NCBI GenBank assembly: GCA_016946835.1
Contig: JACVTC010000024.1
Location: 937,501 to 1,001,500, forward strand
Origin: Neocallimastix lanati (nom. inval.)
Lineage: Eukaryota > Neocallimastigomycota > Neocallimastigomycetes > Neocallimastigales > Neocallimastigaceae
Direction: 5' to 3'
DNA length: 64,000 nt
Position numbers and translations under genes: made by a program. The notes under the pieces were generated by a model, which saw only the letters and a program-made list of their open reading frames with translations, was not told where the DNA came from and searched no databases. Shown piece after piece: positions 725 through 38,816 of this stretch; position 1 is the stretch's first letter, and each line of letters starts with the position of its first letter.

Positions 725-3700
725 TTAATTTTGAAATTTAAATGTGATACCATTCTTACTGTAGAAAAGTTTTCTTTTAATATCTAATAAATCTGAATAA
801 ATAAGTTTTGGATTCTTCTTAATCATCTTATTTTGAATAAGACGTATATAACTATACCATTCACAAACATTTGCTAATTTTTCTCTGCAGTATGGACAAA
901 TATTTTCATAATTTGAATCATTTTCAGAAGCCTTAAACTTAAACCAATTAATTATTTCACTGTTATCTTTTTGTTGAAGTGAACAAAGAACACACTTAAG
1001 TTGAGAATCGTGTTGAGATTCAGCAACAGCAGTATCATCTGAACTTTCAGAGAAAGTTGTCTTTTTATTCATTGGTTCAATTAAAATAGTACCAGCTTTA
1101 GCATTATTCCAAAGCTTTCTATTGTTAAAGAAACCAGAGTATTCACCTTCAAAGGTTAAACAACCAGTAACTTCTTCATTTTCACAACGTTTAATAAACT
1201 TGGCATTAGTAATCTTATCTGGAACCTTTAATTTTTCAATAAAGTCAAGGTATTCAGTATTATCAGTTCTGAATTCCATTGTTCTCTTTTCAATCATCGT
1301 GGAAAGTTCTCCATCATTCATTTGTTTATAATCAGTATCAGTATCGTCATCTTCATCACTTTCTCCATCACTGACATCTTGAGCACTTAAAATGGATTCA
1401 ATAATATCAGCATTACTAGTTTGAATTGAAAGTTTTGGTAATTCTAATTTCTTATTATTATTATCGTTACCGTTACCGTTACTAGAGGAAGTGGTAGTAG
1501 TAGTACTATCCTTACTGGAACGACGTTCAATTTCAACTGGTTTAACATTTGCTTCTTCAACAACTGGAATAATTTCATCTTCAAATCCTTCTTCATCTTC
1601 TTCCTTTATAGTTTCAGTCATACCATATGGAAGAATTGGAGTCATATTCAAATCATTTTGATTAGTCATTAAAAGACTAGAAATGGATAAAGTAGTACTG
1701 GAAATACTGGCATTACTAGCTTTCTTACGAATAATATGTTTATGAATACTACTACTATCATCAGTATCTTCAATAATACTAGTGTTATTTGGTTCACCAA
1801 GAATTGGTGTTTCCTTAATACCCTTATCCATTGCATCATTTCCATTATTACCACTGTATGACATAATTTCAAAAGAGGTGTTTCCACCAAAGCCAGAAAC
1901 TGGACTTGAAACAGTAGCACTATTTAATTCACCTCTCATAAGACCCTTTCTTAGTATACGCTTGAACTTCTTATTCATATGTTCCATCTTTTTCTTTAAT
2001 AATTCAACTTCTTCCTCCTTAACATTATAAAGTACTTGTAATTCATCGTATTTTTTGGTGGTAGCATCTAATAATTTATAGATACTGTTATTTTCTTCCT
2101 TTACCTCATTAATTTGTTGTATAGAACGGTCAGTAATATTTTGAGTTTCGGTACTTAAAATCTTAATCTTTTGAATACTATTTTCCGATTCTTCCTTTAA
2201 AACTTGAATACTGAAACTAAGATCATCATTTCTTGATTTTAATTCATTAATTAATTTTTCCTTGCTTTCAATCTTGCTATTAGCATCACTTAATTGTTGA
2301 TTTAATTCACGATTACTATCTTTTAAAGTTCTATTTAAGAAGTTTAAGTCTTCAACACTTTCTTGGAAGTCCTTTGACTTTTCTAAAACACGATCAATAA
2401 CTTCTTCAGCATTCTTTCTTGATTCTTGTTCTTCTCTATATTTTTTTTCATATTCCTCAAGCATTTGTTTAACACATATTTGAAATCTTTCTGAGTTGGT
2501 CGTTTCTTCTTCAATTTGTGCCTTTAATTTTTCAATAACTTTTTCTAAACGTTTATTCTCTTCTATGGCCTTATTCTTTTCTTCACGTTCTTTTTGAAGA
2601 CGTTTTCTGGCATCTTCATCAATTTGACGCCAAATCTCACGTTCTTCTTCCAAGTGAGCATCATGTGCAGCTTGTAATTCCTTATATTTTTCTAAACTTT
2701 CATTTTGCATTTTATTGATACGATTATCCATAGATTCTTGTAAACGATGAGCATATTCCATAGTTTCACGAATTTTTAAATCAGACTTTTCCAGAGCTTC
2801 CTTCTTAATTTTTTCAGTTTCAATAATAGTATCATCTAAGGTATGTTGAAGAATAGTTCTAGCCTTAATTTCTTCAACAATACGTGAATTTAATCTATCA
2901 ATTTCTTTCTTTAAACTTTCAACAGAATTTTCATCTACCATTGGAATAACTTCATTATCTGAATTATAAGTATCATTTTCAATATTAAAACGAACAGTCT
3001 TCTTTGCCTTCTTATGTTTCTTAGATTTTGATTTTTTCAATGAAGATTTTGACTTGCTCTTATGTTTTTTAATAGCTTTATTAACAGCTTCTTTTAATTC
3101 ACTTTCTTCATATGGATAAATGGTTTGTTTAACATTATATGGATCAGTGACAATAATCTTAATATTATCATTATTTAATTGTTTTGTTTTTTGATTATCT
3201 GGAGTATTAAGAATAATTTTTATATTAACAGCATCATCATTAGATTCACTTTCAGTACTAGTTTCACTATCAGTACTTGAATCCATAGTATTTATTTGTT
3301 CAACAATAGATTCATCAACAGAATTTTCTTCAGTAAATTCTTGTAAACTTGAATGAATAATATCAGTAGTAGTACTTCCAACTATAAATGGATTATAACT
3401 ATTATTAATAGTTTCAATATTACCATTAACATTAACTTCATTAATTAATTCAACAGAATCATTTTCTATATTAATAATATAAAAAGTATTTTATATTTTA
3501 TAATATATAATTAAAAAATATTATTTTTATTTTTATATAAAATTTATAATAATATTAAAATATTTATAAATGAATAAAAAAAAAAAAATAGTTTTTAAAA
3601 TAAATATATATTTATAAATAAAATAGTTACATATATTAATTTATTAAAATTTTTTATATAAATTTATTTTTTTTTTTTTTTTTTTTTTTTGAATATTAAT

Positions 3701-13482: not shown

Positions 13483-13564
13483 AGTTTAAAATTTTATTTT
13501 AATAAAGTTCATATTATAAATAAAAGATTGACTTAAGAACTTTATTAAAATAAAATTTTAAACT
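13483..13564. repeat. Perfect 28-bp inverted repeat with 26-bp loop inside the copia element
   Basis: The arms 13483-13510 and 13537-13564 are exact reverse complements (AGTTTAAAATTTTATTTTAA... and its complement). The loop is 26 bp. The structure lies beyond the RNase H remnant, near the 3' LTR. It could be a small foldback/MITE-like insertion or a templated duplication. Confidence 0.85.
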
Positions 13565-14648
13565 AATATGTTTTAATTATGTGTTTATTTGTCCGTTTTC
13601 GATTGTCTTTTTTACTTGATAAATTATCTGTATAAATTTTAATTGATTGTTTATAATTAAATAATTCCATCATAATGTTTATTATGGATAAGTCTTTTTT
13701 AGTGCTTTCAGTAGTTCCTATGTATTTTGCTTCCATTGTTGAGGTAGCAACAGTTGACTGTTTCTTGGAACTCCAATATATGGGATCTGTTCCTATTAAA
13801 ATAATACTTCCAGAGGTAGATTTTCTATCAGTAATCAGTAATACCTCCTCCAAGATCTGCATTTGTATAAGCAATTACTTCCCCCTGTTCCCTTGTAAGT
13901 GATTTGTAATTTTTGGTTGAATTTAAATATTTTAAAATATTTACAATTTTGTGCCAGTCCGAAATTGTTGGATTCTCAGAGGTTTTTGATGTTTTATTAA
14001 CTGCAAAAGATATATCGGAGTCTAGTACATTTTGATAAAATATGTTAATGACCCTAAAGCGCTCTTATAGGTTGTTTTGTTGAACGGAGGTTTTATTTTC
14101 TTCAAAGTTGTCACCAGTACAAAGTGTTTTAGCTCTTCTAGTATTATTAATTGTAAATTTTAAAAGAATATTTTGAATAAAATTAGTTTGAAAAATTGAA
14201 TAATAGTTACCTGATTTTTCAATTTTAATTCCTAATAGATAACCAATGGAGGAACATTTTGATATTTTAAATTTTCTTTTTAAAAAGATGTTAAACATTT
14301 AATATTTTCGCTTTTTATTCCTGTTATTATTATATTATTGACGTAAATTCCAATGATGCAAACAACTTTTTCATTTATTACTTTTTTTAAAAATATAGGG
14401 TTCCAAGATTAATTATTCAAAGCCTTTAGTATTTAAAAATGCTGTAATAGTTTTATTCCATTGCCTTCCGGATTTCTTCAATCCTTATACGGCTTTATTA
14501 AGTTTCCAGAAACCCTTTTTGTAATTTTTATCCCCTCGTGGTCAATACCTCTAATCTGGCTAAAACTTTTTGCAACCAAACGAGCTTTAAACTTTGTGAT
14601 ATTATTATTACTATCTCGTTTGACTGTAAAGACCTACTTTGTTCGGAT

Positions 14649-34630: not shown

Positions 34631-37339
34631 ATGCCAGGAAATATTCCTCAATTTACTGGTAATTATTGTTATTCTTACGGAATCATTTTAATTCAATTCA
34701 ATTTTTATTTTTTAAATCAATAATTTTAGAACAATATACATATATTTCTTTTTTCACATCTTTCAGATTTATAATTTCACACAAATCATCACAAATATTT
34801 AAAATGGAGCAACTTAAATACTTAAATAAATATTATAAATCATAAATATATATTAATAAATTATATAAAAAATACTATAAATCATAAATATATATTAATA
34901 AATTATTGAAAAAAAAATATTATAAATTATAAATATATATTAATAAATTATTGAATAAAATCAATTTTTTTTTAGTATTATTATAATAATATTATTATTA
35001 TTACTAAAAAAAAAAAAACTAGTATATATATATTATATCTTTCTTTATATATATATATATATAAAGTAATATAATCATTACAATCGAAAATGAAAATAAA
35101 TATGATAATAATTTGAATATTTATAAAAATTTTTAATATGAATTTTACCAATAAGAGAATTAAAATAAATTTTTGGAGTCATATAATTAAAATTTTGATA
35201 TAATAAATGATATAAGGATTTTGATTTATTAATTATAAAATAATATTGATTTTAGTTTTTATTATTATATGAATATTAGCAGTTTTTAAAAAAGATTAAT
35301 AATATATATAAAATATGAAATAACAATAAACTATATTTTTAAGTATTGGTATACAGTAACTAATATTAAAAAATAATCTTATACTTTATAGTACGTAGTG
35401 CTGCTGGTTTAAAAATTTATAATACTAGTTGTACTCCAAAGAAATACGAAACTACTGTTAATTTTAACAAGTAACTTTTATATACATATATTTCTTTTTT
35501 CCTAAATTTTTATTTAAATAAGATAATAATTTTTCTTAATTTTGGATTTCTTAAATTGAAATAATTTAATTTAAAATATATTTAGGGATGATAAAAATGT
35601 AAGAGTTTTTAAATATTCTAGTAATGGACAATATCTCGCATGGGCTACTGCTGATGGGTAAATATATATATATAAATTTAATAATAATATATATAATTTT
35701 AAAATTTTAATTTATTATTTTTATTTTAATTTATTACAATAAATTATTTTATTTTTATCTAGGGTATACGTTTTAGACACTGAAGATAACAAAATTGTTA
35801 TGGAAGTTACTAAAAGAGGAATTATGGATATTGATTTTTCACCAAGAAATACTTATATTGCTACATTTGAAAAATATGGTAAATATATATATATATTTAT
35901 ATTAAATATTTATTTAGTAATTTTGTATTAACTAATGTTTTATTAATTAAATAATTTATTAATTATTATTATTATTATTATTATTCTATTCTTTTTTTAT
36001 TATTATTCTATTTTATATTTATTATTATTCTATTTTATTTTTATTTATTTATATATTATTTAATTTTAACAGTTAAGGAAAGAGATCCAAACAAACCACC
36101 ACATAAAAACTTAATTATTTATGATATTGTTTCTGGTGAACAAAAGATGGACTTTATCCAAAAGAATCCAAAGAATTGGGAAGTACAATGGACAGAAGAT
36201 GAAAGTGTTGTAGCTCGTCTTGTTAATGATCAAATTGAATTTTACAATATTGCTGAAAAGAGTAATAATTTTTATAATTTTAATAAATATATTATATAAT
36301 ACATATATATATATTAACATAATACCTATTAATGTAATTTATATTTATATCTTCTTTTTTATTTAATTTATTAAAATATATAGATTTACTTAATAAATTT
36401 AAATTAAAGGGTATGACAGCCTTCTCTATTTCACCAGGTAAAACTCCTTATGTCGCTACTTTTGTTCCAGAAATTAAGGGTAATCCAGCTTCCGTTAAGA
36501 TTTACAGTTATAATAATTACAAAACTCCAGTTTCAGCAAAGAGTTTCTTCAGAGTTGATAATATTGATATGTATTGGAATAAAATTGGTAAATTTAAAAT
36601 ATTATATTAAAATATATATATATATCTATATATATATTATGGATTTATTTTATATATATATATATATATATAACATTTATCTTTTTATTTTTATTATATA
36701 CTTTTTTATTTATATTTTTGTATTTTTTTTTTTTTTTTATTATTACCTTTTTTATTATTATTATTATTTTTTTTGTTATTTTTTATTTTTTATTTTTTTT
36801 TATTTTTTAATTTATTTTATTTTTATTCGTTTCATATAATTCAATACTTTTTTTTTAATCATTTTTTTATAATATATATTTATATTTATTTTTATTATAG
36901 GTACCAACTTATTAGTTTTAACTCACACTGATGTTGATACCTCAGGTACTACTTATTACGGTGAAACTGCATTATATTTCTTAGCTATTGCTGGTAACTA
37001 CGATTGTAGAGTTGAATTAGGTAATCATTTAAGGATGTAATATATTTATATATATTTACAAATAATTATTATTAATATTATTATAATTTTATTATTATAA
37101 AATTATAAATTTTTTTCTCTAAATAATGTAATATTAAATTAAAAGAAACTGGTGCCCCAATTCATGATGTTGCTTGGAGTCCAAATTCAAGAGAATTTAT
37201 AGTTATTTATGGCTTTATGCCATCTAAAGCTATTTTATTTGATTATCGTGCTAAGCCAGTATTCGAATTCCCAAGAAATCACAGAAACTTTGTCAAATTT
37301 AATTGCCATGGAAGAGATATCCTTATTAATATATAACAA

Positions 37340-37374
<35 letters not shown>

Positions 37375-38816
37375 GGTATATATATATTATTATTCTTAAC
37401 TAATACTTACTTGTTTGTTTAGCTGGTTTTGGAAATCTCGCTGGTGAAATGGTATATATTATATAAATTATTTTAGTATATAACAAAATTTTTTTTATAT
37501 TTATTTATATTTTATTTTTACAATTCTAAAATCTATTAATTAACAATATATAATATATATATATAATATTTTAAAAAGGACTTCTGGGACTTAAAAACTT
37601 TAAAGAAGATTGGTTCTGCCCAAGCTTCAAATGCTTCTTATTGTGAATGGTGTCCAGATGGTCAACATATTATTACCGCTACTTTAACTCCAAGACTTCG
37701 TGTTGACAATGGTTATAAAATATGGCATTATACAGGTGTTAAGGTCTTCCAAGAAGAAATTAATGAATTATATCAAGTAAGTTTATTAATATTATATATT
37801 AATAAAAATATATGTAATTGTTTTTTTATTACTATAAATATAATTTTATTTATAATTAATATACAAATTTTTATCATCGTTTAATTTATTTAATTAAAAA
37901 AAAAAAAAAAAAGGTCCAATGGAAACCAATTTCTGTCGATAACTTTGTTGAAAAGACTAATCTTGCTCCAGCTCCAGAACCATTTGTTGGTGGTCCAGAA
38001 ACTGAAGTTAAAGGTAATAATTAATAAAATTAATAATTAAATATAATAAAATTAGATAAATAATTAAATAAATAATAATAAAACATTAATAATTTAAATT
38101 TTTTTTTTTTTTTTTTTTTTAATTTTGATGAAATTAATTAATAGTTGTTAAGAAGCCAGTTGGTGTTTACAGACCACCAGGTGCTCGTGGTAGAAACACT
38201 CCATCAAATATCTTACATAAGGATATTAAGACAGGTTCAACAGAAATTATTTCTGCCAAGAAAACAGCTGCTATTCCAGGTTTTGTTGTTGAAGGTATAT
38301 ACAAATATTAAAGATAATAATTAATTTTATAAATAAGTAAAATATATGTACGTATAAAAATAAATGTTTAAATCTTTGATATAAATTAATAATAAATATT
38401 TTTTCACCCTTAAATAAAACAGAAAAGAAAGAATTAACTAAGAGTCAAAAGAAAAATATGAGAAAGAATAGAAAGAAGGCCGAAGCAAAGGCTGCAGCTG
38501 CAGCTGCAGGTAACTCTGCACCATCAACTCCGGAACCAGCCGCTCCAGTTGATCCAGCTAAGAAACTTAGACAAGTTCAAAAGAAGTTACGTGAAATAGA
38601 AGCTTTAAAGGTCAAACAAGCCGGTGGTGCAGTTTTAGATGAATCACAAGTAAGATATAAGCATAAATTATTATTTATTTAATAATAAATTTTATCATAG
38701 ATAATTAGCTATATATATATATATATTAATTTATTTATTTATTATTATATATATAGCTTACTAAGCTTAAGCGTGAACCAGAATTACTTAAGGAATTAGA
38801 AAAATTAAAGATTTAA
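34631..38816 (+). CDS. EIF2A: Translation initiation factor eIF2A, fourteen exons
   Basis: Exons: 34631-34658, 35392-35470, 35586-35657, 35763-35878, 36073-36261, 36384-36587, 36901-37020, 37146-37316, 37411-37451, 37579-37776, 37914-38013, 38145-38294, 38423-38649 and 38757-38816. The spliced frame is 1755 nt, giving 584 aa, against 585 for human eIF2A. Residues up to about 430 form the WD-like beta-propeller. Recognisable eIF2A blocks are LTHTDVDTSGTTYYGE, AVYGFMP-like VIYGFMPSKAILF, GRVVCLAGFGNLAGEM and RLRVDNGYKIWHYTG. The C-terminal third has VYRPPGARG, then Lys-, Ala- and Glu-rich helices. By family knowledge the protein promotes Met-tRNAi delivery or alternative initiation at 40S ribosomes. 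Twelve introns are GT-AG; intron 8 is AT-AC. Intron 1 is long, at 733 bp. Confidence 0.97.
37317..37410 (+). other. U12-type AT-AC intron (intron 8 of eIF2A)
   Basis: The 94-nt intron starts ATATCCTTAT, the U12-type 5' splice consensus. It carries TTCTTAACT at 37393-37401, which fits the U12 branch consensus TTCCTTAAC, and ends TTAC, 10-11 nt past the branch adenosines. Splicing joins CAT GGA AGA G to TT GTT TGT TTA and gives HGRVVCLAGFGNLAG, matching conserved eIF2A. The intron has no GT near its 5' end, and reading through meets a stop within four codons. Confidence 0.94.

Follow-up and report, generated by a model that had tools for sequence, protein, structure and literature searches.

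Which spliceosome removes the AT-AC intron in the eIF2A gene of the gut fungus Neocallimastix lanati, and by which signals are its ends recognized? The gene lies in a 64-kb stretch of DNA (the window), from whose letters the original prediction had proposed a U12-type intron in eIF2A of a probable zoosporic fungus. We approached the question through the splicing signals, the reading frame, the small nuclear RNA (snRNA) genes of the 199-Mb genome and the records of relatives.

A minor-class intron in the eIF2A gene

The identity of the gene as eIF2A was confirmed (Table 1), and the assignment to a zoosporic, gut-inhabiting fungus is supported. Our assembly of the gene contains 13 exons and 12 introns, 11 of them GT-AG and one AT-AC. 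Of the twelve other introns that had been described as GT-AG, eleven are thus confirmed, the first exon not having been found. At the AT-AC intron, the upstream exon ends with CATGGAAGAG, the intron runs from ATATCCTTAT to TTCTTAACTAATACTTAC (its last letters being CTTAC), and the downstream exon starts with TTGTTTGTTTAGCTGG and opens with TTGTTTGTTTAGC. As predicted, joining the exons in phase 1 restores the conserved eIF2A stretch, HGRVVCLAGFGNLAG, in frame. The 5′ splice site agrees with RTATCCTT, the branch site agrees with YCTTAAC and forms a predicted duplex of -7.5 kcal/mol with the fungus's own U12, and the branch-to-3′ splice site distance, counted from the second branch A, falls within the 11-13 nt expected of U12-type introns. 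An earlier AC at 37405-37406, 7 nt past the second branch A, is not used.

Table 1. Features of the window; all positions are those of the 64-kb stretch
Feature	Position	Strand	Evidence
eIF2A gene, assembled from 13 exons without the first	35392..38816	+	Pfam eIF2A, 267.7 bits
Exon upstream of the AT-AC intron	37146..37316	+	exon assembly
U12-type AT-AC intron of eIF2A, 94 nt, phase 1	37317..37410	+	sequence reading; same junction in P0001
5′ splice site ATATCCTTAT	37317..37326	+	complementary to AAAAAGGG, assigned as the U11 5′ end
Branch site TTCTTAACT	37393..37401	+	pairs with U12 GUAAGGA
3′ splice site AC	37409..37410	+	11 nt from the second branch A
Exon downstream of the AT-AC intron, 41 nt	37411..37451	+	exon assembly
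Protein-coding region	725..3286	-	100% identical to a Neocallimastix sp. 'constans' protein; P. finnis relative named GDP/GTP exchange factor Sec2 N...
Open reading frame fragment, presumably of Ty1/copia RNase H type	13563..13874	-	resemblance

We then paired GT, GC and AT donors over positions 37295-37344 with AG and AC acceptors over 37380-37451. Among these pairs no GT-AG option was in frame and free of stops. There were 13 options with AT or GC donors, and the pair 37317/37410 restores the conserved stretch; an acceptor ending at 37422 offers an AT-AG option that is in frame with the same donor. Taken singly, the motifs show no enrichment over chance in the 64 kb (ATATCCTTW, 2 versus 5.4 expected; TYCTTAAC, 6 versus 5.8 expected). 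As an ordered triple of 5′ splice site, branch and AC, they gave 25 rows in the 199-Mb genome, many of which are repeats or coding sequence, versus 11 for the reversed pattern. Because the reversed pattern gives 11 in 199 Mb, chance matches to the triple are expected at about 0.004 per 64 kb, and the window intron also falls on an exon boundary. We consider it almost certain that a working minor spliceosome takes out 37317-37410 as an AT-AC intron of the minor class (U12-type); the intron itself is genuine and typical of that class.

Minor-spliceosome components are encoded in the genome

As the original prediction expected, genes for all four minor snRNAs were found in the 199-Mb genome (762 contigs). 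U12 (56.8 bits, cut-off 53), two copies of U6atac (57.4 and 56.4 bits, cut-off 33) and U11 (40.5 bits, cut-off 39) pass the Rfam cut-offs, and U4atac scores 47.2 bits, below its cut-off of 53. All 14 control genomes stayed below the cut-offs in the four minor snRNA searches. In U4atac, UCCUUAU pairs with AUAAGGA of U6atac; both are altered with respect to the Rfam consensus (ACAAGGA in Rfam U6atac), and the predicted U4atac-U6atac stem is kept through the joint change. The search for minor-spliceosome proteins covered two families. U11-48K, which had been suggested as a check, is encoded (match to the PDB 48K chain, 3.2e-9; the 48K family model was also above cut-off in 1 of the 14 control genomes), and so is U11/U12-25K (PDB 25K chain, 0.0011; 0.00011 for a mouse relative, 1v2y). 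Four copies of major U6 pass the cut-off, and the one that was read has ACAGAGA.

The 5′ end of U11 was assigned from sequence and fold. It reads AAAAAGGG at L013:1367, 134 nt upstream of the start given by Rfam, and folds with the rest of the RNA as a cloverleaf; U11 taken in this way is 268 nt long, about twice the 134-position Rfam model. The predicted duplex of AAAAAGGG is -5.4 kcal/mol with ATATCCTTTT and -4.3 kcal/mol with the 5′ splice site of the window intron. A diverged U11 starting at AGAAUAGG, as in the Rfam alignment, pairs badly (-1.8 kcal/mol) and was rejected, the canonical AAAAAGGG lying upstream. We take the Rfam start to be an artefact of long insertions and the predicted U11 to be canonical. 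An insertion of about 30 nt is also present in U12 (L001). U12 reads GGAUAA here versus GGAAAA in Rfam, with a matching A in TTATTCTTAAC of the window intron; an extended U12-branch pairing through co-change was nevertheless dropped, since the matching A is not general among the 19 minor introns described below.

Both U6atac genes carry an altered box

Minor splicing is held to depend on base pairing of U6atac with the 5′ splice site (title of Incorvaia and Padgett 1998). In both U6atac copies, AGCCGAGAGA stands in place of the Rfam consensus AAAGGAGAGA, departing from the usual complementarity to the 5′ splice site; over a wider stretch both copies read GUGUUGUAUGAGCCGAGAGACAGUUGGCAC versus GUGUUGUAUGAAAGGAGAGAAGGUUAGCAC in Rfam. 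In the register predicted for the canonical sequence, the letters facing positions +6 and +7 of the 5′ splice site are left unpaired, and pairing is still possible at +4, +5 and +9 (where T), and at +8 as G-U. The replacement of AAAGGAGAGA by AGCCGAGAGA therefore removes most of the predicted pairing with an unchanged 5′ splice site: -2.5 versus -6.8 kcal/mol for canonical U6atac with ATATCCTTTT, and -1.8 versus -5.4 kcal/mol with ATATCCTTAT of the window. Allowing up to three mismatches to the canonical pattern, a search of the 199 Mb returned just these two loci and no canonical copy, and a scan of viral contigs for the U6atac pattern found nothing. No 5′ splice site matching the new box (RTATCGGCT followed by the branch at 39-99 nt) was found genome-wide, nor was one in the control. 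The two genes (L004 and L005) have similar flanks on both sides and look like a duplication. At the level of sequence the altered box is clearly an unusual feature.

Branch motifs lie far from many 3′ splice sites

A scan of all introns had been proposed as a further check. We searched the genome for RTATCCTT followed by TYCTTAACT, leaving the 3′ splice site unconstrained. With the motifs 39-99 nt apart there were 42 matches versus 21 for the reversed control; at 100-160 nt there was no excess (28 versus 34). From the 42 matches, 30 loci and 9 of the 12 others were taken up and their flanks judged by eye; 14 were coding on both sides, of which 13 were used and L066 was held apart as an exception. 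From the 28 matches, 12 were examined and 6 used, the other 16 being judged on the printed letters alone. The 19 minor introns retained are 18 AT-AC introns and one GT-AG intron, and their phases are 1 in thirteen, 2 in three and 0 in three. L085 was left out as a repeat copy of L083, and L080, L082, L089, L090 and L091 as not convincing. L083 and L085 (on contigs C46 and C109) represent an AT-AC intron in a multi-copy gene family with the junction YYNDY/IENRSFPF; C535 and C607 resemble further copies and likely belong to this family, matching over 80 letters, and C631 looks like another copy of L088.

Support for the individual junctions varies. Intron-free records or gene models show the junctions of L028, L071 and L052, and the exons of L077 are near-identical to those of L052. 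A Pfam domain crosses the junction in L029, L057, L081 and L066, and does so only below cut-off in L088 (Urb2), L053 (dynactin p22) and L027; in L073 CDC24 OB1 and OB2 lie on either side, also below cut-off, and in L049 an LsmAD domain lies solely downstream. The remaining introns are supported by frame alone, some having no Pfam match. Acceptors were chosen by open frame, and in L040 two AC sites fit, giving 82 or 91 nt.

The distance from the second branch A to the intron end is 11, 11, 11, 13, 13, 14, 15, 24, 28, 32, 33, 35, 40, 42, 62, 65, 74, 75 and 82 nt, that is, 11-15 nt in 7 introns, 24-82 nt in 12 and more than 55 nt in 5. The latter five fall outside the branch window of intronIC (-55 to -5; 2020 paper, PMC7367187, as excerpted). 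According to the excerpts of Turunen 2012 (PMC3584512), the optimum for minor introns is 11-13 nt without a distinct pyrimidine tract, and the short spacing is held to distinguish them; taking the motif to be the branch, the set in this genome does not follow that pattern. Beyond 8 nt from the branch, AG and AC are absent from the 471 dinucleotides before the 3′ splice site, versus 66 of 1703 upstream (Fisher p 1.3e-7; 19 introns; L066 and three AC within 8 nt of the branch, which were passed over, are left out of the count); the composition of the stretch itself predicts 8.3 (probability of none, 2.4e-4). The seven introns best backed by protein evidence gave 0 of 163 versus 14 of 533, a small sample by itself. 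T makes up 71% of this stretch in the 12 longer introns; upstream the figure is 48%, and for the final 40 nt of the GT-AG introns of the window's eIF2A gene it is 55%. In most introns the AC used is the first to occur about 10 nt or more beyond the branch, and the sole GT-AG intron uses the first AG; acceptors having been picked partly by frame, this first-AC rule is not wholly independent of the choice. L066 passes over an AC that lies 39 nt beyond the motif; its exon begins after an AC at 136 nt, with no AG between. The distant branch is an unusual feature that is moderately well supported. The signals had been expected to be held constant; this holds for the 5′ splice site and branch motifs, which recur, but not for the branch-to-3′ splice site spacing or the U6atac box that pairs with the 5′ splice site, both of which are off the norm.

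Junctions in the records of relatives

The eIF2A protein P0001 (585 aa) aligns with 100% of the query at 94% identity and contains HGRVVCLAGFGNLAG. Its JGI record is 1758 nt, exactly 586 codons, so it could be a coding sequence plus stop rather than a transcript contig. At the corresponding position, the second eIF2A gene of N. lanati (L071, contig C423) also carries an AT-AC intron, whose branch motif lies 35 nt from the AC. IICIAGFGNL, the junction of that intron, occurs in two gene models, P0008 of N. lanati and P0004 of P. finnis, and in P0003 and P0006. The latter two (P0003 with 748 aa and a longest contig of 2610 nt, P0006 with 738 aa and 2319 nt) both read HSRIICIAGFG, and their records exceed the reading frames yet leave little room for introns. 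For L052, whose motif is 62 nt from the AC, the junction is matched by the POLR3C record P0133 (GNGDYYINFKEINN; 518 aa, with a longest contig of 1759 nt) and by the RPC82 model P0130 of N. lanati (GDYYLNFKQINNHMK). From the protein sequences and record sizes we infer that the longer records (P0003, P0006 and P0133) are transcripts. Two genes have intron-free records that support a distant-branch junction.

The Piromyces finnis eIF2A model P0002 reads HGRDILLILIFYILNKYKNMFCLAGFG in place of the window-gene junction. The predictor seems to have read into an intron there, the start of which is consistent with GATATCCTT; the window intron is therefore probably common to Neocallimastix and Piromyces. 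Two Piromyces models, P0002 and the RPC82 model P0135 of Piromyces sp. E2, are disrupted at or near sites where AT-AC introns were read here.

A proposed mechanism and its alternatives

Removal of the window intron would begin with pairing of U11 AAAAAGGG to the 5′ splice site ATATCCTT and of U12 GUAAGGA to the branch TTCTTAAC; the U4atac/U6atac.U5 particle would join next, and the AC 11 nt past the branch would then be used. U6atac would have to engage the 5′ splice site with most of the usual complementarity gone. The 3′ end appears to be reached by a search that starts at the branch and stops at the first AC no closer than about 10 nt, much as the major spliceosome scans for AG, and such scanning would account for the many sister introns whose branch lies 24-82 nt upstream, across a T-rich stretch that lacks AG and AC. 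U6atac is predicted no longer to pair at +6 and +7, and U11 may therefore be the main reader of the 5′ splice site; 18 of the 19 introns have T at position +9, and as many at +10, which would lengthen U11 pairing. We tentatively propose, as a plausible but far from settled reading, that gut fungi have a re-engineered minor spliceosome in which the 5′ splice site, extended to ATATCCTTTT, is read mainly by U11 and the 3′ splice site is reached by scanning over up to about 80 nt to the first AC.

That the major spliceosome removes the window intron as a rare AT-AC intron of U2-type, its U12 signals being coincidental, is extremely improbable: AT-AC ends by themselves do not assign an intron to its class (PMC3584512, as excerpted), but both U12 signals stand in the right order and spacing at the low chance rate given above, all four minor snRNA genes are present, and 17 further AT-AC introns carry the same two motifs. 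Very unlikely, too, is an additional AT-AG isoform that uses the acceptor ending at 37422 and deletes VVCL. It would be in frame and stop-free; however, AGFGN is found in 103 of 120 listed eIF2A relatives, 101 of which keep the preceding four residues, P0001 has the AC junction, and AT-AG combinations are described as disfavoured (in the same excerpts).

The two unusual features invite explanations of their own. The U6atac loci might be decayed copies, with a canonical gene missing from the assembly, as the altered letters lie in the element that pairs with the 5′ splice site and two nearly identical copies suggest duplication. We regard this as quite improbable, given that the three-mismatch search of 199 Mb returned only these loci, that their flanks, T-run end and U4atac-pairing letters are kept, and that major U6 is represented by four copies above cut-off, with ACAGAGA in the one read. 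The distant motifs (24-82 nt) might similarly be decoys, the true branch being a degenerate one nearer the AC at normal spacing. The TYCTTAACT motifs indeed fail to align between L052 and L077, which align near the AC, and between the two eIF2A introns; L066 skips an AC; and the search itself demanded the motif, its 100-160 nt matches not rising above the reversed control. Against decoys speak the lack of AG and AC more than 8 nt downstream of the motif, which neither upstream sequence nor the composition of the stretch would predict, and its enrichment in T, and we find them unlikely. A fungus that retains minor introns yet relaxes both U6atac pairing and spacing would offer a natural test of those rules; it would also suggest that such introns escape surveys confined to the final 55 nt or to gene models already made.

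Comparison with known systems

The original prediction had supposed that minor splicing might be undescribed in gut fungi. This is not so: Larue 2023 (PMC10639083, as excerpted) reports minor introns and snRNAs in Neocallimastigomycetes (P. finnis and N. californiae), using the same four Rfam models for snRNAs and intronIC for introns. These are the same class of organisms and the same system as here, and the excerpts mention neither branch spacing nor the U6atac box in these fungi. Larue 2023 was also the one paper that a full-text search on U6atac in these fungi matched, and among the matches listed for gut-fungal minor splicing and minor branch spacing neither feature was reported (subscription journals fall mostly outside this search). 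The distant branch and the altered U6atac box look new.

According to excerpts of PMC3584512 and PMC10639083, U12-type AT-AC introns of animals, plants and Rhizophagus share with those described here the 5′ splice site ATATCCTT, the branch YCTTAAC, the AC end, a phase bias away from 0 and the snRNA set. The differences are that in 12 of the 19 introns of N. lanati more than 20 nt, with a T-rich tract, separate the branch from the 3′ splice site, and that AT-AC introns make up 18 of 19, versus about 26% in human. In the placement of the branch there is a likeness to U2-type introns with distant branches and AG exclusion zones (PMC1431707, as excerpted), where the branch is likewise far away and acceptor dinucleotides are excluded; the introns of N. 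lanati differ from these in having U12 signals and an AC acceptor, and in excluding AC besides AG.
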